Below, in pieces: positions 2,655 to 39,330 of a DNA stretch of 64,000 bases. The notes beneath the pieces are model-generated. The model had not been told where the DNA came from, did not search any database, and was given only the letters and a program-made list of their open reading frames with translations. The stretch's first letter is position 1. Every line of letters begins with the position of its first letter. Origin of the DNA: Leptolyngbyaceae cyanobacterium (GTDB taxonomy: Bacteria > Cyanobacteriota > Cyanobacteriia > Cyanobacteriales > Aerosakkonemataceae); contig DATNQN010000071.1 of the NCBI GenBank assembly GCA_036703985.1, positions 124,001 through 188,000 on the forward strand, in the 5' to 3' direction. A program made the translations under genes and the position numbers.

Positions 2655-5093
2655 TTATGGTTTAATCTCTATCCTTAAAACAACGTTACTAGTTAGTTGT
2701 TGAAGAGGTTGCCAGGTAAAAATCGCTCGCCGGATTGCTTCGATAACAGTTTGTTCTTTTATGGAAGATTCTTCTTCATTAAGAACAACCTGTCTGACTC
2801 GTCCTTTGCTCAGATGAAACTCGAAGACTAATTTACCAATTACACCAGCCGGAAGTTGGATAGATTGCAAGTGTTGAGCGAGAAGTACGATCTCATTTTC
2901 AATTAGTCCAGTTGCACTCACGATTTTTAAGCGATGACTCGGAGATGTTCCCGGTTGTTGAGGTTTTGGTAATTCTGCATCTATTTCATCAGATTGAATC
3001 AATGAAGGATCGATTAGTGCAAGTTCTTCGGCTCCTTCAACCTTTGGCATTTCAGGAGGCTGAGGAGAACGACGCGCCCTGATTCGCTCTGCTCCCCTTG
3101 CTGAAGGTGGCGGAGAGGGAGACATGGGGGCTTGTGGTGATGCAGCAGAAGTTGCGATCGTGCTATATGCAGCCGCAGGTGCAGCACGTCTTACACTTGG
3201 AGCAGCAGCGCCAAAAACACCTTGATAGCTGACAGCTTCCGGCATTTCCACAGGTACTTGCACAGAAATGGAAGCATCGGTGGTATTAACTCGCACGTCA
3301 TCGCTAACAGCTACGAAAGCTGTATATTGCGACAATAATTGATAAGTTAAAGCCGTATTTGTTACCGCTTCCACACCTGTTTTTGTTTCGCCGCGCACCA
3401 TTTGATTCATCAAATCTTTGATGCGAGAACGTCCCCAAAGTTGTGCGATCGCAACATTCCCCTTTTCTTCAAAGTTTAAATTAAAAGTCTGGTGATAGCG
3501 CATTCCACCCGCCGCAATTCCACTAACTTGCAGTTTTCCACCACGACGATCTGACTTGCGTCCGAACAACACTAATGGTTGTTCTGCAAACAAATCGGGT
3601 GGATTTTCAGGATAGATTGCGGGAGATTCTCCATCCCCTTCCCATTGCAAGTTAATGTTAGCAAGAACGGGATTGTTAATCTGACGGAAGAACTTTTCGA
3701 CTACTTGATCGGTTGGTTCATCATGTCGAATAATCCGTGCAATACCTCGTCCTAATTCCGCTACTCGATTGAGCAAAAAACGATTTACCGAACTACCAGC
3801 ACCAAAGCTATAAAGACGAACTCCGGGTTTGAGATTTTGCTGCACTTCTGCAAAGATTTGATTTTCATTACCGATATAACCATCAGTTAACAGTACGATA
3901 CTCCGCAACCGTCCCGGATCAGTAACTGGGAAATTCAAAACTGCTCGAATTCCTCGTAACATTTCTGTTCCGCCGCCTGCATTCAATTGATTGATATATT
4001 GAATTGCACGAGAGCGATTTTGTGGGGTATTGGGGAGAGGAACGGGTGAAAGTTGCTGCGTTGTGTTGGCAAAATTAATAATGCTAAAAGTGTCGTATGG
4101 ATTGAGTCCGTTGATAAAACGGCGCATCAATTCTTGACATTGCATTAATGGCGCACCATGCTGAGAACCGGAGGTATCGATTAGAAATACTACATCTTTC
4201 GGAACCATTTGATCTAGTTGATATTGGATGGCGGGAATTAGGTAAAGCGCAAAATGTCCGCCTCGATCGTCTGCTTGGGTGAGGATAGTTGTTTGAGTGC
4301 GATCGCCTGCTACTTGATAACGTAAAATCAGGTCTTTATTAGGAATAGTATCTCCACCCGCTAATTTAACTCGCACGATTTGATTTTCATGGGAAACTTG
4401 GATTTGATGAGATGGCGATCGCACATCCCGAATCTCAACTCCCGCATCAATTTCAACGGTTACATTAATGTCATGTCGCGAACGAGTTCCTGCTGGTAAA
4501 ATCGGCGCATTCAAACGAGAAGCATCAGGCACTAAATCGGTATCTTGATTTAACGTCATCGGTGCAACTGCCGAACCACTTCCTACTGCATTATCATCAA
4601 TAGTCGTGCCTGGAATGTAACGAGGGCCAACTACCATTGGAAACACGAATTCATAGTTACCTCCCTCGAATTTCAAGCTATCGTTGTAGCGAATAATCAC
4701 GTCGATTTGTTCCCCCGGTTTGATGTTAGCAAGAGATTGAGTAAAGATGTTATCTCGTTCTTGTTCGAGGAGTCCGGCGGTGCGTCCTTGTTGCTTGGCT
4801 TGTTCGTATATTTGTTGTGCTTCTTGACGTTTTTTGATGCTACCTTTAATCGTGCGATCGCCAATGCGAATCAGCATATCATCAACTGCTGCTTCATCCG
4901 GTAACGGGAAAATGTAAACAGCTTCCAGCGTAGTTGTAAAAGGGTTTTCAAACGTTTGAGTAACTTCTACTCGCGAGATATTTCCTGCTACCTTTGCTTC
5001 TACTTCGGTATGTTTGAGAGGAAAAGCAATTTTTTGTTGGTTAGCAGTTTGAACGTATAAACCACCAATATTGCGATCGAATGTTTGAGTCAT
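2655..5093 (-). CDS. VIT and von Willebrand factor A domain protein with TonB-like C-terminus
   Basis: The 812-residue protein starts at the ATG ending at 5093, chosen because GGAG lies 8-9 nt upstream; an in-frame ATG seven codons earlier lacks this. Residues about 1-140 form a VIT (inter-alpha-trypsin inhibitor) domain. A vWA domain near residues 300-480 carries the MIDAS signature DTSGS. A Pro/Ala-rich linker near 640-700 separates the vWA part from the last 75 or so residues, which read like a TonB/AgmX C-terminal fold (KLVFEFHLSKGRV). VIT-vWA proteins are common in bacteria, with poorly known roles in adhesion or protein interaction. I see no signal peptide, so the cellular location is unclear. 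It is divergent from the retron locus. Confidence 0.8.
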   Translation of the reverse strand: MTQTFDRNIGGLYVQTANQQKIAFPLKHTEVEAKVAGNISRVEVTQTFENPFTTTLEAVYIFPLPDEAAVDDMLIRIGDRTIKGSIKKRQEAQQIYEQAKQQGRTAGLLEQERDNIFTQSLANIKPGEQIDVIIRYNDSLKFEGGNYEFVFPMVVGPRYIPGTTIDDNAVGSGSAVAPMTLNQDTDLVPDASRLNAPILPAGTRSRHDINVTVEIDAGVEIRDVRSPSHQIQVSHENQIVRVKLAGGDTIPNKDLILRYQVAGDRTQTTILTQADDRGGHFALYLIPAIQYQLDQMVPKDVVFLIDTSGSQHGAPLMQCQELMRRFINGLNPYDTFSIINFANTTQQLSPVPLPNTPQNRSRAIQYINQLNAGGGTEMLRGIRAVLNFPVTDPGRLRSIVLLTDGYIGNENQIFAEVQQNLKPGVRLYSFGAGSSVNRFLLNRVAELGRGIARIIRHDEPTDQVVEKFFRQINNPVLANINLQWEGDGESPAIYPENPPDLFAEQPLVLFGRKSDRRGGKLQVSGIAAGGMRYHQTFNLNFEEKGNVAIAQLWGRSRIKDLMNQMVRGETKTGVEAVTNTALTYQLLSQYTAFVAVSDDVRVNTTDASISVQVPVEMPEAVSYQGVFGAAAPSVRRAAPAAAYSTIATSAASPQAPMSPSPPPSARGAERIRARRSPQPPEMPKVEGAEELALIDPSLIQSDEIDAELPKPQQPGTSPSHRLKIVSATGLIENEIVLLAQHLQSIQLPAGVIGKLVFEFHLSKGRVRQVVLNEEESSIKEQTVIEAIRRAIFTWQPLQQLTSNVVLRIEIKP

Positions 5094-5236: not shown

Positions 5237-5371
5237 GGATGTCTACAGCAAAATATTGATTCCGTTGTTGATCCTGCGACGGCGTTATTCAAAGTCCGCT
5301 TTACGCGTGCGTCGGTCTTTTCCCGTCGGCGTGCAGTTTGCAGTAAGTGAGAATATAGTCTGTAGACATCC
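5237..5371 (+). ncRNA. Retron msr-msd non-coding RNA
   Basis: A perfect 12-bp inverted repeat (GGATGTCTACAG at 5237-5248, CTGTAGACATCC at 5360-5371) encloses a 135-nt segment that is much more GC-rich than the AT-rich DNA around it. The left arm runs into AGC, the trinucleotide that carries the branching guanosine in known retrons; the candidate G is at 5248. Inside, CGACGGCGT (5277-5285) can pair with ACGC-GTG-CGTCG (5303-5314) with a 3-nt bulge, and CGACGG can alternatively pair with CCGTCG at 5323-5328, giving an msd-like stem. It lies 102 bp upstream of a retron reverse transcriptase on the same strand. The call rests on the a1/a2 pairing, the AGC and the position; msDNA production is inferred. 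Confidence 0.85.
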
Positions 5372-5473
5372 TCTATTTATATAAATAAATACTTAAGGTT
5401 TAGTAAATAAATTTTATAGGCAAGGCAATAAATTTTTTGATCGGTAAGTGGTTTACATAAAGTAAATAAAAGT

Positions 5474-6577
5474 ATGTCAAATAGTAAGCAACCATCCACC
5501 CCATCAAAAGCTTCTATTAAACCGGCGCTTAATAAGGAATGTGAGGAACTACGCAAACAGTTTTTTGCGATGAAAAATCCTAGAGATATAGCATGGCTTC
5601 TAGAAATTCCTTACCAGCGACTTGTTTACCATATATATCAGGTTCCTCCAGAATATAAATATTTAACTTTTGAACTTAATAAAAAGTCAGGAGGTACTCG
5701 TATAGTATCTGCTCCTGCTAGTGCTTTGAAGCTAATTCAGAAAAAATTAAATCAAGTTTTACAATCCGCTTATCAGCCTAAGCCATCTGTTCATGGATTT
5801 ATTTACAGTAAAAATATTGCTACTAATGCTAAGGCACACATCAGAAAAAGATACGTTTTAAATCTCGATATAAAAGACTTTTTTCCTAGCATTAATTTTG
5901 GTAGAGTAAGGGGAATGTTTATTGCATTACCCTATGGGTTTAGCCCGGATGTAGCAACAGTTTTAGCACAAATTTGTTGTCACAACAATCAATTGCCACA
6001 AGGAGCACCTAGCTCACCAATTGTGAGTAATATGATTTGTGCAAAGCTCGATAGTGAACTTCAACAACTGGCTAAAAAACTTAGGTGTACTTATACAAGA
6101 TATGCTGATGATATTACATTTTCTACAACTATGCCAAAATTTCCTAAAGAGTTAGCTTATTTTATTTCTATTGAGGAGCAACATAAACTTGTTTTGGGTA
6201 ATGAATTATTGTCCATCATTAAAGGTAATGGTTTTCAAGTCAATGAAAAAAAAATTAGGCTACAATCAAAAGACGAGCATCAAGAGGTTACAGGTGTGAC
6301 CGTTAACCAGTGTACTAATGTAAATCGCAACTATATCCGCCAAATTCGAGCGATGCTCCATGCCTGGGAAAAGTTTGGGATTGAATCGGCGGAAAAAGAA
6401 CACCGAACAAAATATCATTCAAAACAGAAATCGCCATACAAAATTACGCCATCATTCAAACAAGTTCTTCGGGGTAAAATAGAATTTATTGCCATAGTAA
6501 AAGGTAAGGAAGATCCAATTTACCAGAAACTTTTGAATTTTTACTTAACATTAAATAAGGGTATGAGTAAAAATTAA
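5474..6577 (+). CDS. Retron reverse transcriptase (retron 1)
   Basis: This 367-residue RNA-directed DNA polymerase would prime from the 2'-OH of the msr RNA and copy the msd. Visible motifs are NAKAH (118-122, the retron NAxxH region X), DIKDFF (132-137, catalytic motif A), QGAPSSP (176-182), YADD (210-213, catalytic aspartates) and VTG (272-274, retron region Y). The length is slightly above that of minimal retron enzymes. It lies 102 bp after the msr-msd and 14 bp before the HEPN-like gene, so the three probably form one unit. The ribosome site is weak (AAAAG before ATG). The gene is strikingly AT-rich and lacks HIP1 sites, unlike the second reverse transcriptase downstream. Confidence 0.92.
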   Translation: MSNSKQPSTPSKASIKPALNKECEELRKQFFAMKNPRDIAWLLEIPYQRLVYHIYQVPPEYKYLTFELNKKSGGTRIVSAPASALKLIQKKLNQVLQSAYQPKPSVHGFIYSKNIATNAKAHIRKRYVLNLDIKDFFPSINFGRVRGMFIALPYGFSPDVATVLAQICCHNNQLPQGAPSSPIVSNMICAKLDSELQQLAKKLRCTYTRYADDITFSTTMPKFPKELAYFISIEEQHKLVLGNELLSIIKGNGFQVNEKKIRLQSKDEHQEVTGVTVNQCTNVNRNYIRQIRAMLHAWEKFGIESAEKEHRTKYHSKQKSPYKITPSFKQVLRGKIEFIAIVKGKEDPIYQKLLNFYLTLNKGMSKN

Positions 6578-6591
6578 ATAAATAAAATATC

Positions 6592-7503
6592 ATGCAGAAT
6601 GAGGAAGAAAAAAGAAAAGATATTAATGAAATAAAGAGTGAGCTTATCACTTTAAGAACCGAATTTTATAATTTAATTGAAATATTAAAGGAGAGCTTTC
6701 CTGAAGTAACCCAAATTAGAGGTAAAAGCGGACTCAAAAATGTGGAAGATACGGAACAAAAGAAAACTATTGTTTCGGTAATAAATTATTCTATTATCAA
6801 AGACCCAAAGATAAAAAAACTTGCGTTTGACTATAATAAAAATATAGGGAAATCCAAAGACAAAAAAGATTTTTACAAATTCTGCTATTATGTGGCAGGC
6901 TTGGTTGAAGAAATTGCTAAAGTTTTTTTAGAGAGAAAGTTTCGAGAGTTACAAAAAGGGAAAAATATAGATTTATCAGAAGCTTATTCACTTGTTAATA
7001 TCAATTTTAAGCCTTCAGGAAAACTTAGGCTTCCTAACATATATGTAAGCTGGCTTGAGCAAGGTAGCGATGAAAGTAATAATTATCATTTGGATGGCAA
7101 TCAGTATTTATCTTTGATAGAGTTAAGGAAGGGCGATAGTTGGTTTCTGCTTGATATGTGCTTTGCTATACTATGGAAAACCAATTTTTATGAACAAAAA
7201 AATAAATTTTCATTCAAAAATTATGAAGAAATGACAAGAAAAAATAAGCAAATAATTCCAGCAGCAATCCAAAGACAATCTTCAAATGTGAAGATTTCCA
7301 ATGTTCTCTTAAATATGGAATATTATTTTAGGCTGAATAATATACGAACATTTAGAAATAAATACGAACACAATAAGAGTAATACCGCTCAGTTTAATCA
7401 AGAAATAGACTTTCTTAAAAATTATGTAAAAGTAGATATAGATAACTATAATGGTATTTTAGAAGCAGCTAACTGGCTATTAATTCAGTTAGATTTTCTT
7501 TGA
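6592..7503 (+). CDS. Putative HEPN-type retron effector
   Basis: I do not recognise the full 303-residue protein. It is Lys/Asn-rich, soluble and mostly helical by eye. Residues 255-260 read RNKYEH, which fits the RNxxxH (Rx4H) signature of HEPN-fold ribonucleases; it sits between hydrophobic helices near the C-terminus, where HEPN motifs usually lie. A predicted coiled coil covers about 1-35. The gene begins 14 bp after the retron reverse transcriptase, on the same strand and with the same AT-rich composition, which is the position of a retron effector. By analogy it would be a toxic RNase held in check by the reverse transcriptase-msDNA complex and released on phage attack. This role is inference from motif and context. 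Confidence 0.6.
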   Translation: MQNEEEKRKDINEIKSELITLRTEFYNLIEILKESFPEVTQIRGKSGLKNVEDTEQKKTIVSVINYSIIKDPKIKKLAFDYNKNIGKSKDKKDFYKFCYYVAGLVEEIAKVFLERKFRELQKGKNIDLSEAYSLVNINFKPSGKLRLPNIYVSWLEQGSDESNNYHLDGNQYLSLIELRKGDSWFLLDMCFAILWKTNFYEQKNKFSFKNYEEMTRKNKQIIPAAIQRQSSNVKISNVLLNMEYYFRLNNIRTFRNKYEHNKSNTAQFNQEIDFLKNYVKVDIDNYNGILEAANWLLIQLDFL

Positions 7504-7588
7504 AGCGTGAGAATATACATTTTAATTCTGTGCTGTATATTTATAAAATAAAGTAAAATTAAAGAAACTATCAAATTGCTCGCTACCT

Positions 7589-7879
7589 ATGCTGAAAACT
7601 ATTGAATGTATTTATCAAAATGGGAAAACTGAACTCACTGAATTGCCGCAGGATGTGAGCGATCGCACTCAAGTCCTCGTTATCTTTCTCGATCCTGCTA
7701 AAATCGATGCTGTAAAACTTCGGGAATTGATCGGGCATTTAGAAACGATCGCAGGTATTCAGCAAGGATTCGAGGAACTTAACTCAGGTCAAACTCGCTC
7801 AATCGGAAATTTTATTCAAGAAATGCAGCAAAAGTATGGGATTTTAGATGACCTTAACGATCTGGGAGGTAAAGCCTAA
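7589..7879 (+). CDS. Small antitoxin-like protein
   Basis: This 96-residue protein has an N-terminal half (KTIECIYQNGKTELTELPQD) with the short beta-hairpin pattern of DUF104-like cyanobacterial antitoxins. Its helical C-terminal half ends with EMQQKYGI. No RelE, PIN or other small toxin gene is adjacent, so it could be an orphan antitoxin or a standalone regulator. It lies between the HEPN-like gene and the NB-ARC gene, whose chosen start is 22 bp downstream. HIP1 sites reappear inside this gene, marking the right edge of the AT-rich retron segment. Confidence 0.5.
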   Translation: MLKTIECIYQNGKTELTELPQDVSDRTQVLVIFLDPAKIDAVKLRELIGHLETIAGIQQGFEELNSGQTRSIGNFIQEMQQKYGILDDLNDLGGKA

Positions 7880-7901
7880 AATCACTTTTCTCAACAAGCC
7901 T

Positions 7902-9422
7902 ATGTCTAACTCGCTCTCAGCATCAACGGAAGGATTGGCTCAAGTCGATCGATCGCGTCAGCGTCTTGGGTGGACGAAAACTAGTACGGCGCGTTGGTGG
8001 CAAGATGCTCATACTTCTAGAGCTACTTTACGTCGATTCTGGCAAGGAGAGCGGATTCAGCGAGAAATTTTTATTGCAATTTGTCAGGCGGTTGGCATTA
8101 GTAACTGGGAGTCAATAGCAGATAATTCTAATTTAGAATCTGATTCAATTTCAGAAGTTTCAATATCTCATATTGACTGGAGCGAAGCACCAGATATTGA
8201 AAGTTTTTACGGACGCGATCGCGAATTAGCACAACTAGAACAATGGATTACGAAAGAACGTTGCAAATTAGTAACTATTGTTGGTATCGGTGGTATTGGT
8301 AAAACTGCTCTGATACTAGCTTTGGCAGATCGGATTCAAGGAGAATTTGAATATGTAATTTGGCGATCGCTTCATTATTACCCATCAGTTATTTCTTTAC
8401 TAGATAGCATTTTGAGTAAGTTTGATCAACCCGTTGAGGAAGATATTAATAAAGGAGCAGTGCAACTAATCAACCAATTGCAAAAACATCGCTGTTTGTT
8501 GATATTAGATAGTTTAGAAACTGTTCTGGATAAAACAGAAGAAACAAATCAATACGCTCAACTGATACAACGATTAATTTCCAGCCGTCACCAAAGCAGC
8601 ATTCTAATTGCTAGTCGGGAAAAACCAAAATGGATTGAAACTGATGTAAAGGCTGTTGGTTATTTAAATCTACAAGGTTTGCGAAAACCAGAAGCTTTGG
8701 AGTTGTTGAAATCTAAAGGATTTACGGGTAAAGAATTGGGACTATCACCTTTAATTGAAATGTATCGTGGAAATCCTTTAGCTTTGAAACTGGTAATCCC
8801 ATTGATTGAATCACTATTTGGTAAAAATGTAGCAGCATTTTTGAATCAAAATACTTTAGTAATTGGCGATCGCTTACAAGCTATTCTGAAACAACAATTA
8901 GAGCAAATTTCCGATTCAGAACGAGATATCCTCTACTGGTTAGCTATTTGGCAAGAACCGATTTCTTTTGGTCGATTGCAATCTCATTTGTTGATATCTG
9001 TCGATCCAGCTACGGTTTTAGAAGGTATTGCGGCTTTGGAACGGCGATCGCTATTGGAAAAATGGATTACTGTTGATGAAGTGTCATTTACGTTACAACC
9101 GATCGTGATGAAAATGGTTACCGATCGGTTGGTGGAAAGCGCTATTCAAGAGATCGATCGCGTTGTGCAAAGCAACGATATTCGGCATTTTCAAATATTG
9201 CGAACTCACTGGTTACTGCGTCCCGGTACTGACGATATCGCAGGCGATCGCATTTTGCAGCAACTCCGAGAAAAACTGTGGTGCAGATATAATGCAATTC
9301 TGCCACAAACTCTTGAGCAAATTTTGTTACTCCTCAAAGATAAAACACCTTTAGCAATCGGCTATATCGGTTGCAATTTAATGGCTATTCTCAAACAGAT
9401 AAAACCAGAAACGATGAAATGA
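7902..9422 (+). CDS. NB-ARC (STAND) NTPase with N-terminal HTH-like region, short form
   Basis: The 506-residue protein starts at the ATG whose product begins MSNSLSASTEGL, the usual start in this cyanobacterial family; an upstream in-frame ATG at 7848 overlaps the preceding gene. Residues about 1-75 resemble the HTH-like region of cyanobacterial NB-ARC proteins. The P-loop GIGGIGKTAL is at 128-137 and Walker B (LLILDS) at 199-204, followed by the winged-helix part of the NB-ARC. STAND NTPases oligomerise on sensing a ligand and trigger an effector. The protein stops just after IGYIGCNLM, near residue 490, where longer relatives continue into pentapeptide or WD40 sensor repeats. It therefore appears to lack a sensor domain. 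Confidence 0.8.
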   Translation: MSNSLSASTEGLAQVDRSRQRLGWTKTSTARWWQDAHTSRATLRRFWQGERIQREIFIAICQAVGISNWESIADNSNLESDSISEVSISHIDWSEAPDIESFYGRDRELAQLEQWITKERCKLVTIVGIGGIGKTALILALADRIQGEFEYVIWRSLHYYPSVISLLDSILSKFDQPVEEDINKGAVQLINQLQKHRCLLILDSLETVLDKTEETNQYAQLIQRLISSRHQSSILIASREKPKWIETDVKAVGYLNLQGLRKPEALELLKSKGFTGKELGLSPLIEMYRGNPLALKLVIPLIESLFGKNVAAFLNQNTLVIGDRLQAILKQQLEQISDSERDILYWLAIWQEPISFGRLQSHLLISVDPATVLEGIAALERRSLLEKWITVDEVSFTLQPIVMKMVTDRLVESAIQEIDRVVQSNDIRHFQILRTHWLLRPGTDDIAGDRILQQLREKLWCRYNAILPQTLEQILLLLKDKTPLAIGYIGCNLMAILKQIKPETMK

Positions 9423-9569: not shown

Positions 9570-11012
9570 ATGACAGACCAACAGCCCAGAACTCGTCAAG
9601 AACTGTACGATCGCATTCGTCAAACTTCCAGGGAAGAAGTGATTCTGGAAGAAATGATTCGCCTGGGCTTTTGGCCCGCTCAAGGGGAAGTACCAACCGA
9701 TCCGGCTGATGAAATACGTCGTCGAGGAGAAATTCAGCGAGAACTGGGCGAACTTTACAAGCAAAACCGCAAACTGCACAACGAAGAATATCTCAAAAAG
9801 CAATTTTACAAACAACGCTTAGAAGAGTCGAAGCGGAAACAGGAAGAAAACAAACAACGGCGGGAAAGAGAAAGACAAGAACGGGCAGAAGCTTGGCGAC
9901 AAAGGAAAGAGCAGGATATTGTTTATTTAGGCGATCGCGTTTCTGGCGGTCTGAACTACACTGAATGCAATCTAGAACGGTTGCAAAGTTACGGCTTACC
10001 CGATTACGGTACGGCAGAACAAATTGCCACGGCAATGGGAATTACGATCGGGCAATTACGTTTTTTAGCATTTTCTCGCAAAACTTCCCCCATTTCTCAT
10101 TATATTCGCTTCAAAATTCCCAAAAAAACCGGAGGCGAAAGAATTATTTCTGCCCCCATGCCTCGCCTCAAAAAAACACAATATTGGATACTTAAAAATA
10201 TATTAGAAAAAGTCGAACTGCACGACGCCGCTCACGGTTTTCGTCCGGGACGTTCCATCGTCAGCAACGCACAAAATCACGTTGGTGCAGAAGCAATTAT
10301 TAATTTCGATTTAAAAGACTTTTTTCCTTCGATTTCCTATCAACGAATTAAAGGACTTTTTCAATCATTAGGATACTCAGAAGCAGCCGCTACTATTTTC
10401 GGTTTACTTTGCACAGAACCCGATATTGAAGAAGTAGAATTAGATGGCAAAACCTACTACGTAGCGCTGACAGAACGCCACTTACCCCAAGGCGCACCAA
10501 CCAGTCCAGCGATTACAAATATTCTCTGTCGCCGACTCGACCGCCGCCTCGCTCAAATGGCTGAGAAATTCGGTTTTGTTTATACTCGTTACGCTGACGA
10601 TTTAACTTTCTCTGCTTCCGGTGATAATCGTCGCCATATTTGTAATGTCCTCAGAAATACGGAATCAATTGTTGACCACGAAGGATTTGCGATTAATGAA
10701 GAGAAAACCCGCATTCTCCGCAATTCCGTACAACAAGATGTCACTGGGGTAGTAGTGAATAGCAAACCAAATGTTGATAAAAAAACTTTGAAACGTTTTC
10801 GCGCTACTTTATATCAAATTGAAAAAGATGGTATTGAAGGGAAATTTTGGGGTAATTCTTCTGATGTGATGGCCTCGATTCATGGATTTGCTAATTTCGT
10901 GGCGATGGTTAACCCCCAATTAGGGGCAGAATTTCAAGCACAGGTGAAACGGATTAAAGAGGGCAGGGTAAAGGGGGAAATGGGAAAGGGGAAAGGGGGA
11001 GAAATAATTTAA
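9570..11012 (+). CDS. Retron-type reverse transcriptase with coiled-coil N-terminus (RT 2)
   Basis: In this 480-residue protein, residues about 1-40 form a helical motif (EVILEEMIRLGFWP) and 50-115 a highly charged coiled coil. The polymerase covers about 120-460: NAQNH (233-237, retron NAxxH), DLKDFF (247-252), QGAPTSP (307-313), YADD (341-344) and VTG (391-393). The retron-specific motifs place it with retron enzymes rather than group II introns or diversity-generating elements. I cannot identify an msr-msd in the 147 bp upstream. The N-terminal extension may replace a separate effector or bind a partner. The last 15 or so residues are Gly/Lys-rich and encoded by GGGGAAA-like repeats, so the natural C-terminus may have been extended. 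Base composition matches the chromosome. Confidence 0.88.
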   Translation: MTDQQPRTRQELYDRIRQTSREEVILEEMIRLGFWPAQGEVPTDPADEIRRRGEIQRELGELYKQNRKLHNEEYLKKQFYKQRLEESKRKQEENKQRRERERQERAEAWRQRKEQDIVYLGDRVSGGLNYTECNLERLQSYGLPDYGTAEQIATAMGITIGQLRFLAFSRKTSPISHYIRFKIPKKTGGERIISAPMPRLKKTQYWILKNILEKVELHDAAHGFRPGRSIVSNAQNHVGAEAIINFDLKDFFPSISYQRIKGLFQSLGYSEAAATIFGLLCTEPDIEEVELDGKTYYVALTERHLPQGAPTSPAITNILCRRLDRRLAQMAEKFGFVYTRYADDLTFSASGDNRRHICNVLRNTESIVDHEGFAINEEKTRILRNSVQQDVTGVVVNSKPNVDKKTLKRFRATLYQIEKDGIEGKFWGNSSDVMASIHGFANFVAMVNPQLGAEFQAQVKRIKEGRVKGEMGKGKGGEII

Positions 11013-17727: not shown

Positions 17728-19956
17728 TTACAGATAAAATTCTGCTACCACCTTTTTATAAAAAGACTCTAATGCCACAACGCAGCTTTTATCATTATAA
17801 ATCATACTATGGCGTTGATAGATTTTTTGTCTTATATCTTGACGCCAATTGGTATCTAAACCTAATCTGACTGCAATATCAACATACTCAACTCGATCGC
17901 GTGCAATAGTCTCTGACATCTCCATCATTTTCAAAATCCCATAAGCGTGGCGACCGCGCATGAATTCGCCCGGACAAGTCACGACAGGTAAACCGCAAGC
18001 CAGCGCTTCTAGAGTTGTATTACCACCAGACCAACTAAAGCTATCGAGAAAAATATCGGAAAGTAAATTTACATTCAAGTAATCAATATGATTCATTCTA
18101 GGTAGTAAGATACAATGCTTTTCACTGTTTAAGTTTAATTCAGCAAAAGCGCGTTTTAGCCTTGATTCAAATTGGCGATTAACATAAGCTGATTGATGAC
18201 TGATAAAGGCAAATTGTGCTTGGGGTACTCTTTGGGCTATTTCGGCAAATACGCGATCGAATTGAGGCAAATATTTAAATAAGGATTGACAAGAAAAATA
18301 GAGAATTGCATCTTCACGCAGGTTAAAATCAGCACGCGTTTTGGTTAGTTCAGGAATGTCTGGCTTTTCATAACACATTCCGATATTCGGCAAACGAATT
18401 AGCTTTTCTGAATAATGCGATCGAGCATTTTCTGGTTCCATTAAATCGCTGGATAAAAAGTAATCGATTGTTGGTAACCCGCTAGTAATCGGATGTCCCC
18501 AAGTGGTACATTGTACGGGGGCTAAACTTAAGGCGGCTATTTGATATGTCAGCGGACTCATACCGATATCCGTAAATACTAAAATGTGTGGTTTATCGGT
18601 AATTATTTGTTGACAAATTGATTCTATATTTCCGTAAATATGATGGAAATAATTGCTGTAAGAACGGAACTTTTCTGTGGTAGAATCTACTTCAGGAGCA
18701 ACTTGATAGGTATAGATGTCAAAAGTTTTGCGATCGCAATTTTTTAACCAGCCCAGAGTTAATTTACCTACCGTGTGATTTCGCAAGTGAGTTGAAATAT
18801 AACCGATGCGAATTTTCTCGTTTTTATTAATGGCATACATGGGACGAGGTAGCACCCAATGAGGATAGTTGGCAGCCATTACTCGATGCAAAAAGTTGCC
18901 TAACTTACGCTGGATACCTCTTTCGTTCAAGCCTTGATAGCCGAGATAAAAAGCGATCGGTCTTTTTTGCCAAATATTTAAAGTTAGTTCTCGGCTTTCG
19001 GGAGAAGTTAAGATTGTGGCGTTAATTAATTTATTAATTGCTTGACAACAACGCTGACGCCAGAAAGGAATTTGCTCGATATTATCGTATAAAACTGGTA
19101 AAGCTAGTTCGTTAAACCAGTAAGCTGTGGCAAGATCTGGTTTGAGTTGTAGGGCTTTTTGGAAATTTGCGATCGCATTTTCTACTTGTCCGCTATCCCC
19201 AAGAGTAATTCCCATATTCAAGTATGCTTCGGGACTGTGGGGATTGATTTTTAATGCTGCTTCTAGCCATGCGATCGCATCTTCAAAATGATACATTTTC
19301 GATAAAGCAGTGGCGATACCGAGATAAGCATCTATGGACTGGGGTGTTAAGGAAATGGCTTTTTGATATTCGACGATCGCTTGTTGGTAGTTGCGTTGTT
19401 CTAATAAAGCGTTACCAAGATTATAATAGATACCGGGAATATTGGGTTGCAGTAAGATTACTTGTTGGTAATGATGAATAGCTGCGGCAATTTCCCCTTT
19501 TTCCAATAAAAGATTTGCTAAATTACCGCGAACTTCTATATCATTTGGGTTAATCGCAATCGCCTGTTGATAATGGTAAATTGCCGTGGATAAATCGCCC
19601 ACTTGTTTGAACGCATTTCCTAAATCGTAATGTGCGTCGCTATAATCTGGTTGAAGGGCGATCGCTTGTTGGTAATAGGTAATTGCTTCTAATAGTTGAC
19701 CTTGCTGGTGCATTACAGCACCCAAGCTATAATAAGCTCGTGCATGATCGGGTGCAAAAGCGATCGTTTGCAGATAGTAGAGAAGTGCTTCATCTAGTTT
19801 GCCACTTTGATGTGCGATCGCGCCAAGCAAAAATAAAGCTTCCGTACAATCAGGCTGTTGCTGAAGAATTTGCTGACAAATCGATTCAGCTTGGGAAATT
19901 TGTCCGCTTTGGAGATATTGGTAGGCAAGTGCGATCGCTTGTGAGAGACTTAGCAT
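17728..19956 (-). CDS. TPR protein with GT41 (O-GlcNAc transferase-like) domain
   Basis: The 742-residue protein has about seven TPR units in residues 1-275 (for example AYYSLGAVMHQQGQLLEAI) and a C-terminal GT41-like catalytic region at about 375-742. The latter starts KIRIGYISTHLRNHTVGK and contains the donor-site part SWSGGNTTLEALACGLPVVT near 660-680. Eukaryotic OGT and SPINDLY transfer GlcNAc or fucose to Ser/Thr; bacterial members are proposed protein glycosyltransferases, some acting on adhesins. The acceptor here is unknown. The cytoplasmic location is inferred from the absence of a signal peptide. It is monocistronic, with repeats on both sides. Confidence 0.88.
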   Translation of the reverse strand: MLSLSQAIALAYQYLQSGQISQAESICQQILQQQPDCTEALFLLGAIAHQSGKLDEALLYYLQTIAFAPDHARAYYSLGAVMHQQGQLLEAITYYQQAIALQPDYSDAHYDLGNAFKQVGDLSTAIYHYQQAIAINPNDIEVRGNLANLLLEKGEIAAAIHHYQQVILLQPNIPGIYYNLGNALLEQRNYQQAIVEYQKAISLTPQSIDAYLGIATALSKMYHFEDAIAWLEAALKINPHSPEAYLNMGITLGDSGQVENAIANFQKALQLKPDLATAYWFNELALPVLYDNIEQIPFWRQRCCQAINKLINATILTSPESRELTLNIWQKRPIAFYLGYQGLNERGIQRKLGNFLHRVMAANYPHWVLPRPMYAINKNEKIRIGYISTHLRNHTVGKLTLGWLKNCDRKTFDIYTYQVAPEVDSTTEKFRSYSNYFHHIYGNIESICQQIITDKPHILVFTDIGMSPLTYQIAALSLAPVQCTTWGHPITSGLPTIDYFLSSDLMEPENARSHYSEKLIRLPNIGMCYEKPDIPELTKTRADFNLREDAILYFSCQSLFKYLPQFDRVFAEIAQRVPQAQFAFISHQSAYVNRQFESRLKRAFAELNLNSEKHCILLPRMNHIDYLNVNLLSDIFLDSFSWSGGNTTLEALACGLPVVTCPGEFMRGRHAYGILKMMEMSETIARDRVEYVDIAVRLGLDTNWRQDIRQKIYQRHSMIYNDKSCVVALESFYKKVVAEFYL

Positions 19957-20050
19957 AAGACGAACTAGGGACTAGTTTAGGTTTTAGTGCTGAAGCGCAA
20001 CAACGTAACGAAAGAGCGATCGCACTTATCATAACGATACATCCACACTC

Positions 20051-20093
20051 TTCATCTGCGTACATCTGCGTTCATCCTTCTTCATCTGTGGTA
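20051..20093. repeat. Decameric repeat (TTCATCTGCG), copy 2
   Basis: Four decamers (TTCATCTGCG, TACATCTGCG, TTCATCCTTC, TTCATCTGTG) are followed by GTAAAA. It belongs to the same family and orientation as 17546-17588 and 22421-22467. Confidence 0.7.
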
Positions 20094-20115
20094 AAAAAAG
20101 CCTCGCATCCTATAA

Positions 20116-38037: not shown

Positions 38038-39330
38038 TTAACTAAGTAATTCCAAATATTGTTTAGCAATAATTTCAGGAGTAAAATTGGCTTTGAGATA
38101 GCTACGTCCTGCATTTCCCATCCGATCGGCTATTTCTGGATATTGAGATAAATGCAAAATGAATTCAGCTAAATCTTGACTGTCTCCATTATTAAAAGCA
38201 GCACCACATTCTGCTTCAGCTACTAATTGACACAGATAAGAATGCGGTTCGCAAATTACCGCTACCGGACGCCCAGCCGCTAAAATTCCATACAGTTTGC
38301 TGGGTGCAACCAGTCCTTCCATACCAGGGCTAATACTCACTATAGATAAATCGCAAGCAGTTAAAGAATAAGGAAGGTCTTGCTTTTCTTGATATGGTAA
38401 AAACAAACAATTTTTTAAACCTAAATCCGTGACTGTTTCGATACAAGCTTCGCGTTTTGCGCCATTGCCGATAAACACAAATTTAATCGGTCGATCTCGA
38501 AGTCGAGCCGCTGCTTTTAAAATAGTATCCATATCATGACAGCGCCCCATATTTCCCGAATACAAAACTGTAAAGTAATTAACCAAATTATACTCATGAG
38601 CGAACCAATTTAGTTGCTTATCAATCGGTTTAATATTTTCTGGATTAGCCCAGCTATGAATAACAGCAATTTTATCGAGAACTTCCGGACAATTTACTGC
38701 TATGCGTTCTTTCATGGCTGGGCTGAGAACGATGATTTTTTTCGCTCTTTTCCAGATACAAGTATTGATTAAATTCCAGATTTTAACCAAAATATTTTGA
38801 TGTTTAATAGCTTTAAGTTCTAATGCTATATCTGGGTATAAGTCATAAAGCAAGCAAACATAAGGAATCCGAAAAAATAAATTTGCTAAATATCCTAAAG
38901 TTGGTAAAAAAGGTGGTGCAGTAGTGATTAATAAAACGTCACCGCGAGCAGGAGTTTTGAGTAAATGTACTCCAGAACGCAGACAAAATAAAATTCCATT
39001 AATCAACTTACCGCGAATTCTTCGCGGCCAAAGTTGAGCGGTACGCGATCGCCTGACCTGAATTTTTTCAGAACGTTCTATAGGAGGTGCAGAAGCTTTT
39101 TGAAAAGCATAACCTGGTTGTCCGGTAAATACTTGCACTTCCATTCCCAGATCTCCTAATTGACTAGCAAGCTCTTCAATTAATTGCCCTGTAGCTGCGT
39201 AATCGGGAGGATAAAACTGGGTAATAATTGATAATTTAACTGCCGATTTCGATCTGGAATCGTTCACCTTACTTTGCCATAGGCTCCGGATTTTTTCCAG
39301 ATTTTGGCTGAGGACAAGTTGTTTAAACAT
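38038..39330 (-). CDS. GT4-type glycosyltransferase (WcaI-like)
   Basis: The 430-residue GT-B fold enzyme has an N-terminal domain with QFYPPDYAATGQLIEELASQ and a C-terminal donor-binding domain with SPGMEGLVAPSKLYGILAAG, where nucleotide-sugar phosphates bind. It resembles WcaI-like enzymes of exopolysaccharide synthesis, which transfer a sugar to a lipid-linked glycan on the cytoplasmic face. It is divergent from the BY-kinase gene across 438 bp and probably belongs to the polysaccharide locus. Confidence 0.88.
   Translation of the reverse strand: MFKQLVLSQNLEKIRSLWQSKVNDSRSKSAVKLSIITQFYPPDYAATGQLIEELASQLGDLGMEVQVFTGQPGYAFQKASAPPIERSEKIQVRRSRTAQLWPRRIRGKLINGILFCLRSGVHLLKTPARGDVLLITTAPPFLPTLGYLANLFFRIPYVCLLYDLYPDIALELKAIKHQNILVKIWNLINTCIWKRAKKIIVLSPAMKERIAVNCPEVLDKIAVIHSWANPENIKPIDKQLNWFAHEYNLVNYFTVLYSGNMGRCHDMDTILKAAARLRDRPIKFVFIGNGAKREACIETVTDLGLKNCLFLPYQEKQDLPYSLTACDLSIVSISPGMEGLVAPSKLYGILAAGRPVAVICEPHSYLCQLVAEAECGAAFNNGDSQDLAEFILHLSQYPEIADRMGNAGRSYLKANFTPEIIAKQYLELLS

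Follow-up and report, generated by a model that had tools for sequence, protein, structure and literature searches.

Does the 135-nt structured RNA that lies just upstream of a reverse transcriptase (RT) gene in a Leptolyngbyaceae cyanobacterium belong to a retron, and what would such a retron carry as its effector? Retrons are bacterial systems in which a small RNA is copied into DNA and a partner protein is guarded. The original prediction had described it as a GC-rich msr-msd island in AT-rich DNA, with perfect terminal pairing and an msd that could switch between two stems. We analyzed the locus within the window, a stretch of 64,000 nucleotides on contig C71 of a 7.68-Mb genome, and compared it with related loci. 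We interpret the locus as a new retron variant whose predicted effector is a HEPN ribonuclease: the noncoding RNA (ncRNA), the RT and the adjacent HEPN-type gene probably constitute one retron (Table 1). The ncRNA is followed by the RT, the effector ORF, a 96-aa ORF, an ORF for an NB-ARC/NACHT-type ATPase recognized by Pfam (7848–9422), which sits between two RTs, and a second RT. This second retron-type RT (9570–11012), which lies ~3 kb beyond where the first one ends, matched the PADLOC model RT_XIII with 663 bits. Elsewhere in the same genome, a 50-kb contig (G000:C144, 783–3859) carries several RVT_1 matches in separate frames.

Table 1 Features of the retron locus, in window coordinates
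Feature	Start	End	Strand	Basis
Retron ncRNA (msr-msd)	5237	5371	+	Fold, covariation, covariance-model match
a1, 5′ terminal repeat GGATGTCTACAG	5237	5248	+	12/12 terminal-helix pairs changed on both sides among relatives; ends picked by complementarity
Inner helix 5′ arm TATT, pairing with AATA 5352–5355	5254	5257	+	Compensatory TATC/GATA and TATA/TATA in relatives
Candidate branching (priming) guanosine	5258	5258	+	G in 25/27 aligned ncRNAs
msr stem-loop CCGTTG-TTGATCCTG-CGACGG	5262	5282	+	Conserved, compensatory changes
Approximate msd (cDNA template)	5298	5351	+	Ends inferred from alignment
Inner helix 3′ arm AATA	5352	5355	+	Compensatory changes in relatives
a2, 3′ terminal repeat CTGTAGACATCC	5360	5371	+	Same basis as a1
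Retron-type RT, 367 aa, without C-terminal fusion	5474	6577	+	Motifs, PADLOC
HEPN-like effector ORF, 303 aa	6592	7503	+	RNKYEH (residues 255–260) at 7354–7371

A conserved msr-msd RNA

The element is real and very probably a retron msr-msd RNA. As predicted, its ends pair perfectly: GGATGTCTACAG and CTGTAGACATCC form a 12-bp terminal repeat that closes exactly this segment. Within the 300 nt that precede the RT, the a1/a2 helix is the best of those spanning 90–200 nt, and none of 60 dinucleotide-type shuffles reached it; taken alone it is not unique, as helices of equal strength occur in 2 other tiles among the 213 of the window. The folded 135 nt reach −44.5 kcal/mol, 3.55 standard deviations below shuffled sequences (z −3.55; equally low in 1/200 shuffles), and the 351-nt stretch around the element is as stable as its shuffles (z −0.14). 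Base composition bears out the AT-rich right flank, where 100 bp stand at 20% GC, a level seen in 0.4% of 100-nt windows. The word "island" was too strong: the GC content of the element, 48% versus 40.5% in the whole window, is equalled or exceeded in 12% of 135-nt windows, the left flank has 46%, and the msd part (58%) is its sole clearly rich part. Rfam gave no family for the window at gathering scores, and none for four loci including plasmid pAQ5 at E ≤ 0.1. Separately, the window tile at 19801–20100 contains a strong long-range helix whose score of 33 is the top among the 213 tiles.

Elements located 5′ of close RT relatives have differing a1/a2 repeats, such as ATCACTTGCGG / CCGCAAGTGAT and GGAGATGTCTAG / CTAGATGTCTCC, and most of them share a common core, TATTGATTTCCGTTGTTGATCCTGCGACGGTGTATTT...GCTTTACG, followed by a variable stretch, AAGNGAGAATA and a2. 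Nineteen elements of 123–164 nt were aligned. In a plain MAFFT alignment that predated any named structure, the msr stem was paired in 19/19 rows, with exchanges of G-C to A-T, C-G to T-A and T-A to C-G; in the inner helix, TATT/AATA alternated with TATC/GATA and TATA/TATA. In the structure-based alignment A5, 95.3% of the 594 cells of the stored structure were paired, versus 79.3% when shuffled and 35–50% when slid, both-sided changes occurred in 20 of the 22 pairs, and 107 cells carried them against 29.6 in shuffles (sd 5.7), counts that lean upwards because the element ends were chosen by complementarity and A5 was fitted to the structure. Neither the msr nor the inner helix depends on the choice of ends, and both are visible in the unfitted alignment as well; the msr helix is the most conserved, with 6/6 pairs changed on both sides and 100% of cells paired. 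RNAalifold, given the same alignment, predicted these helices by itself, together with a three-pair stem at the msd base. The msr-msd identity first proposed is thus strongly borne out by covariation and by conservation upstream of homologous RTs, the sort of test that the prediction had called for.

Searches extended this picture beyond the aligned set. When 22 loci were scanned for helices against shuffles, the top upstream helix was reached by 0/60 shuffles in 17 loci and by 1–2/60 in three; the remaining two, L012 and L018, showed no helix in this plain scan, and the covariance model finds the RNA in both. This model, R1, was built from 19 sequences, the window element among them, and its match to the window (5237–5372, 93.8 bits) is accordingly a match to a training sequence. 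Run on 30 sources and then on 26, after L023, L046, L048 and L058 had been dropped with nothing at E ≤ 0.01, R1 gave 27 matches at E ≤ 0.01. Matches outside the training set were found in L012, L018, L022, L038, L043–L045, L047, L051, L055, L061 and pAQ5. Chance-level matches on the minus strand of L016 and at window position 38744 disappeared at a stricter E limit. One locus, L019 (genome G076), has tandem retron ncRNAs at 2652–2782 and 2942–3112 before a single RT (112 and 64.8 bits).

Across whole genomes, R1 matched 18 places in 17 of 386 cyanobacterial genomes, each beside an RT relative; 31 of the 386 encode an RT relative at E ≤ 1e-30. Of the 17 genomes whose RT is unfused and at least 48% identical, 16 have the RNA, as does G103, whose RT is fused; in the exception, G048, the RT was matched only from residue 150. 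Fourteen of the 17 RNA-positive genomes had supplied training sequences, and G022, G085 and G103 had not. Independent evidence comes from Picosynechococcus PCC 7002, whose plasmid pAQ5 has an R1 match at E 4.8e-15, 23 nt before the annotated RT. Among 25 distant loci, R1 reached E ≤ 0.001 in 4/8 loci without HEPN-like neighbours and in 0/17 Bacteroidota-type loci with such neighbours, the best of the latter being L069 (E 0.2, at the expected place); helix scanning supported an RNA in just 2/16 Bacteroidota-type HEPN loci. A further proposal, that stable hairpins are absent from the msDNAs of this family (just 4/27 had a DNA z ≤ −2), was dropped because two Ec67-family controls, with z −0.8 and −1.2, showed the test to be without power.

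Two other readings of the RNA fared poorly. In the original prediction, CGACGG would alternate between 5310–5314 and 5323–5328, making the msd switchable. The motif is there, its exact place being 5277–5282, and so are the complements (CGTCG at 5310 and 5324, CCGTCG at 5323); as an isolated duplex, CGACGG/CCGUCG (−8.6) is even more stable than CGACGG/CCGUUG (−6.5). In the window RNA, however, CGACGG pairs with CCGUUG at 5262–5267 (4.65 of 6 expected pairs), whereas the pair probabilities of the alternative stems are near zero (0.000 for 5310, 0.002 for 5324), and forcing them yields −34.3 or −37.5 instead of −44.5 kcal/mol, a cost of 10.2 or 7.0. What was taken for a switch strand forms the 3′ half of the conserved msr stem, where it covaries with its 5′ counterpart, and the downstream complement is missing in 18/18 relatives with a locatable arm (34 other ncRNAs were considered, and the pattern missed the arm in 16). 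A switchable msd is therefore scarcely credible. It is also very unlikely that the RNA serves the RT operon as an attenuator or terminator instead of being a template for reverse transcription; such an element would suit a position upstream of the RT and G+C-rich hairpins, but not a span of 121–172 nt closed by a1/a2 in 35 loci, nor an RT with retron motifs. The RNA also has a conserved G before GATT (G5258), at the same place as the G before GATTT in the Ec67-family retron RNA of L159, and a single msr stem-loop as in Ec67-family RNA, both of which argue for an msr-msd.

An unfused RT and its neighbour gene

NAxxH and VTG are motifs of retron RTs. The window RT contains NAKAH (5825–5839), YADD (6101–6112) and VTG (6287–6295), and in an alignment of 14 rows (the window and 13 relatives) N118, A119, H122, Y210, D212, D213, V272 and T273 are invariant, with A211 and G274 at 90% or more. 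The locus thereby combines the traits of a retron that could be examined: an RT with YADD, NAxxH and VTG, an upstream ncRNA with a1/a2 and an msr stem-loop, and a neighbouring ORF as candidate effector. The best PADLOC models for the RT are RT-Protease_XI (464 bits), then RT-TIR_XII and RT-Toprim_I-C. The RT search gave no relative in viral contigs. In the Parcubacteria locus L055, an unfused RT is followed by a separate ORF for what appears by eye to be a trypsin-like protease, a split type XI arrangement.

The neighbouring ORF belongs to a very divergent family. It had no Pfam or PADLOC match at E ≤ 0.001, a chance-level model alone in NCBIfam (E 0.09) and no match in phage records. Pfam gave no HEPN-type model above chance for 15 members (Abi_C at 0.15 and DUF4145 at 0.43 were among the matches), and a PDB sequence search with the effector alignment returned one match, phytoene synthase, at E 0.053. 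ORFs that follow related unfused RTs share 16–35% identity with the window protein, and only M1, C98, R255 and H260 are invariant in 15 aligned members. The HEPN motif Rx4-6H is found as RxxxxH in 15/15; the chance of it after shuffling is 0.08–0.44 per protein, and the product, 1e-12, is indicative, the members being related.

A profile of the effector located the family in 15/386 cyanobacterial genomes. These include 13 of the 17 whose unfused RT has at least 48% identity. The effector went undetected in the other four (G022, G058, G127 and G296), and the two further matches (G042 and G119) are short pieces with stops. Among the 13, G064 retains a remnant joined to a truncated RT, and in G326 the effector lies near one contig end with the RT near the end of another. 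Apart from this contig-end case, the 386-genome scan revealed no intact effector gene away from an RT, which fits a toxin that needs its own RT, in a small sample. Among the collected loci, which include the best 80 of 542 RT relatives from a genome-contig scan and so provide no census, 62 locus ids had profile matches; 58 of these also hold an RT, and in all 58, several of which repeat one place, the effector frame either begins directly downstream, at −56 to +69 nt relative to where the RT frame ends, or shares that frame. L026 and L130 represent one deletion remnant: in L026 (G064), the N-terminal part of the RT is in frame with the last part of the effector, apparently through an internal deletion.

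Of the loci with profile matches, 17 fall outside the cyanobacterial group and bear Bacteroidota titles (E 3e-15 to 9e-4); one of these, L116, is titled "Candidatus Gallipaludibacter". At the motif site 13 of them have RxxxxH and four have RNxNH, one residue shorter. When the 15 cyanobacterial effectors and 11 of the 17 distant ones were compared profile to profile, the motifs aligned and the match had 98.4% probability (E 4.5e-15). One locus, L076 (3746–5536), encodes an apparent RT-HEPN fusion with RNDDSH (profile E 2.4e-5) that looks genuine. In L103, L105 and L111, the RTs and the effector N-termini are very similar and the effector bodies differ (RNVQSH/RNIQSH or RNLNH), an apparent recent effector swap.

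The fold assignment rests mainly on a shorter relative, the 210-aa protein of L019; the structure search with the window effector was weak. The window protein was modeled with a mean pLDDT of 75.7, and in a second-look alignment Csm6 ranked first and second (Z 6.8 and 6.3), followed by Roquin entries. The L019 model is more confident (pLDDT 87.7). Foldseek gave nothing at E ≤ 0.001 for either model; for L019 it ranked Csm6 first at E 0.19 and a HEPN protein second at E 0.78, both short of significance. In the second look, the L019 model reached Z values up to 10.2, Z 10 being below the caution level for helical bundles, and HEPN, HepT/HpeT or Csm6 titles made up 15 of the first 23 rows; YggD (7.4) and MtlR (6.9) are among the other titles there, and most titles from row 24 on (Z 5.5) were unrelated. 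The modeled L019 protein thus probably has a HEPN fold. The family resembles the HEPN ribonucleases HepT and Csm6 in this probable fold and in RxxxxH, but differs from them in its link to a retron RT and RNA, and PADLOC and Pfam recognized no MNT antitoxin or CARF domain.

Could the neighbour nevertheless be something else? One reading makes the locus a catalogued type (XI, XII or I-C) that has lost its fused effector, next to an unrelated gene. The ranking of PADLOC models would suit it, but the RT-Protease_XI match ends with the RT part (profile 3–321 of 510), the window frame likewise stops after the RT domain, and the frames of close relatives extend just 0–13 aa beyond it. Moreover, the neighbour is one protein family in 13/17 genomes with an unfused RT, adjacent wherever found. 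We therefore consider this loss quite unlikely. It is unlikely, too, that the neighbour is a HEPN fold devoid of RNase activity (an adaptor, modification target or nucleotide-binding protein) within a retron of other output. HEPN folds without catalysis exist, the HepT motif RX4HXY has a tyrosine that the effector motif lacks, and 4/17 distant members carry the shortened RNxNH. Against this, R and H are invariant, besides the start methionine and one cysteine, and because they have persisted at 16–35% identity, an active site is indicated.

Comparison with known retrons and proposed mechanism

The founding retron classification is reportedly that of Mestre 2020. The variant was not found in the literature searched, and these RTs may already be listed in the 2020 classification. 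The retron literature compared comprised excerpts of PMC13405049, PMC8934634, PMC12548924, PMC8867640 and PMC12405507; judged by titles and abstracts, PMC13405049 alone among papers on retrons and HEPN proteins is centred on a retron HEPN.

The RNA is most reminiscent of Retron-Eco2 and the Ec67 family (type I-C, RT-Toprim), with which it shares a1/a2 repeats, one short msr stem-loop and a candidate branching G; in the excerpts of PMC12405507, Eco2 has a branching rG15 and one msr stem-loop. The RTs are related as well, sharing ~41–44% identity with plasmid relatives that are annotated as belonging to the Ec67 family. Unlike that family, the window RT has no fused Toprim, its partner is a separate HEPN-like protein, and the msr stem sequence differs. 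Types XI (RT-protease) and XII (RT-TIR) have the closest RT domains in PADLOC; here, by contrast, the effector is not fused and the partner belongs to no PADLOC or Pfam family. With type IX Kva2 (HEPN plus winged helix), the locus shares a HEPN effector, here a predicted one. According to excerpts of the preprint PMC13405049, the Kva2 HEPN is held in an RT-msDNA complex and cleaves tRNA after release; the system includes a winged-helix protein, and its HEPN has H64/R122 in place of the canonical motif. The window effector instead has RxxxxH, its RT scores 180 bits with RT_IX versus 464 with RT-Protease_XI and so falls outside the type IX RT group, and no winged-helix gene was recognized by Pfam or PADLOC sequence scans of the ORFs in 6592–9422. 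Because the retron traits are present, the XI, XII or I-C fusion is absent, and both RT and motif differ from type IX, we regard the locus as a distinct retron variant.

From this anatomy and the studied retrons Eco2 and Kva2, we infer a guarded HEPN ribonuclease acting in abortive infection. The RT would start 2′-5′ priming at the conserved G5258, copy the msd and stop near the end of the msr. By analogy, the RT-msDNA complex may keep the HEPN protein inactive until the msDNA or the RT is disturbed by a phage product and the protein is set free; the freed HEPN dimer might then cut RNA, possibly tRNA, so that growth would stop and the infection be aborted.

A broader view, to which we give an even chance, is that this is an undescribed retron type with a rapidly diverging HEPN ribonuclease effector. 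It would occur both in Cyanobacteriota and in Bacteroidota, the latter with another RT lineage and one RT-HEPN fusion; in one cyanobacterial subgroup there is a third gene, whose product, a P-loop kinase-WYL protein, might mend RNA ends or act as a sensor of single-stranded DNA.

Effector exchange and distribution

A quick tree of 102 RT rows places the window RT beside L008 and L010 (97–98% support), within a group of 18 cyanobacterial RTs (support 88, not starred) of which 15 have the HEPN neighbour and three have none. Truncated, broken or duplicate RTs (L012, L024, L026, L029, L037, L052, L053, L058 and L106) were left out. Many neighbouring rows have fused effectors, and the Bacteroidota HEPN rows are placed elsewhere. 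The HEPN label changes 11 times on the tree versus 26.8 times in shuffles, with L011 labelled "HEPN next" by hand (its effector is on another contig end, L128) and the label "none" covering some fused RTs, such as L049. Pfam identified trypsin (L023), Schlafen-AlbA_2 (L043), Mrr_cat (L048) and AAA_5 (L022) among the fused domains of relatives, and had no match for three of the eight fused C-termini scanned.

These observations fit repeated effector exchange on one RT-RNA chassis. Identity to the window protein is 16–35% for the effectors, and the RTs stand at 47–74%; because the effectors differ more than the RTs, an arms race at the effector is suggested. If this holds, one RT lineage has often exchanged effectors (trypsin, Schlafen-type, Mrr-type, AAA, Toprim, TIR by annotation, and HEPN) with the msr core nearly constant in the cyanobacterial branch, and the RNA and RT surfaces that silence an effector would become testable. 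It would also provide a HEPN retron with a canonical motif to set beside type IX Kva2.

Picosynechococcus PCC 7002, a laboratory strain, carries a related locus on its plasmid pAQ5, where the neighbour ORF has RNHRSH and a weak effector-profile match (14.7 bits). There (L157, 5967–8033) and on Geminocystis pGM3709_03 (L158, 5933–7984), a third gene follows the HEPN-like gene and encodes a protein of 683–688 aa with a P-loop kinase (AAA_33) and a C-terminal WYL/WCX region; by eye, the same gene also begins in L015 and L019. In three Nostoc-type genomes (L037, L038 and L041), the retron lies ~1.0–1.8 kb from a gene named by eye as ClpC-like, possibly an insertion spot.
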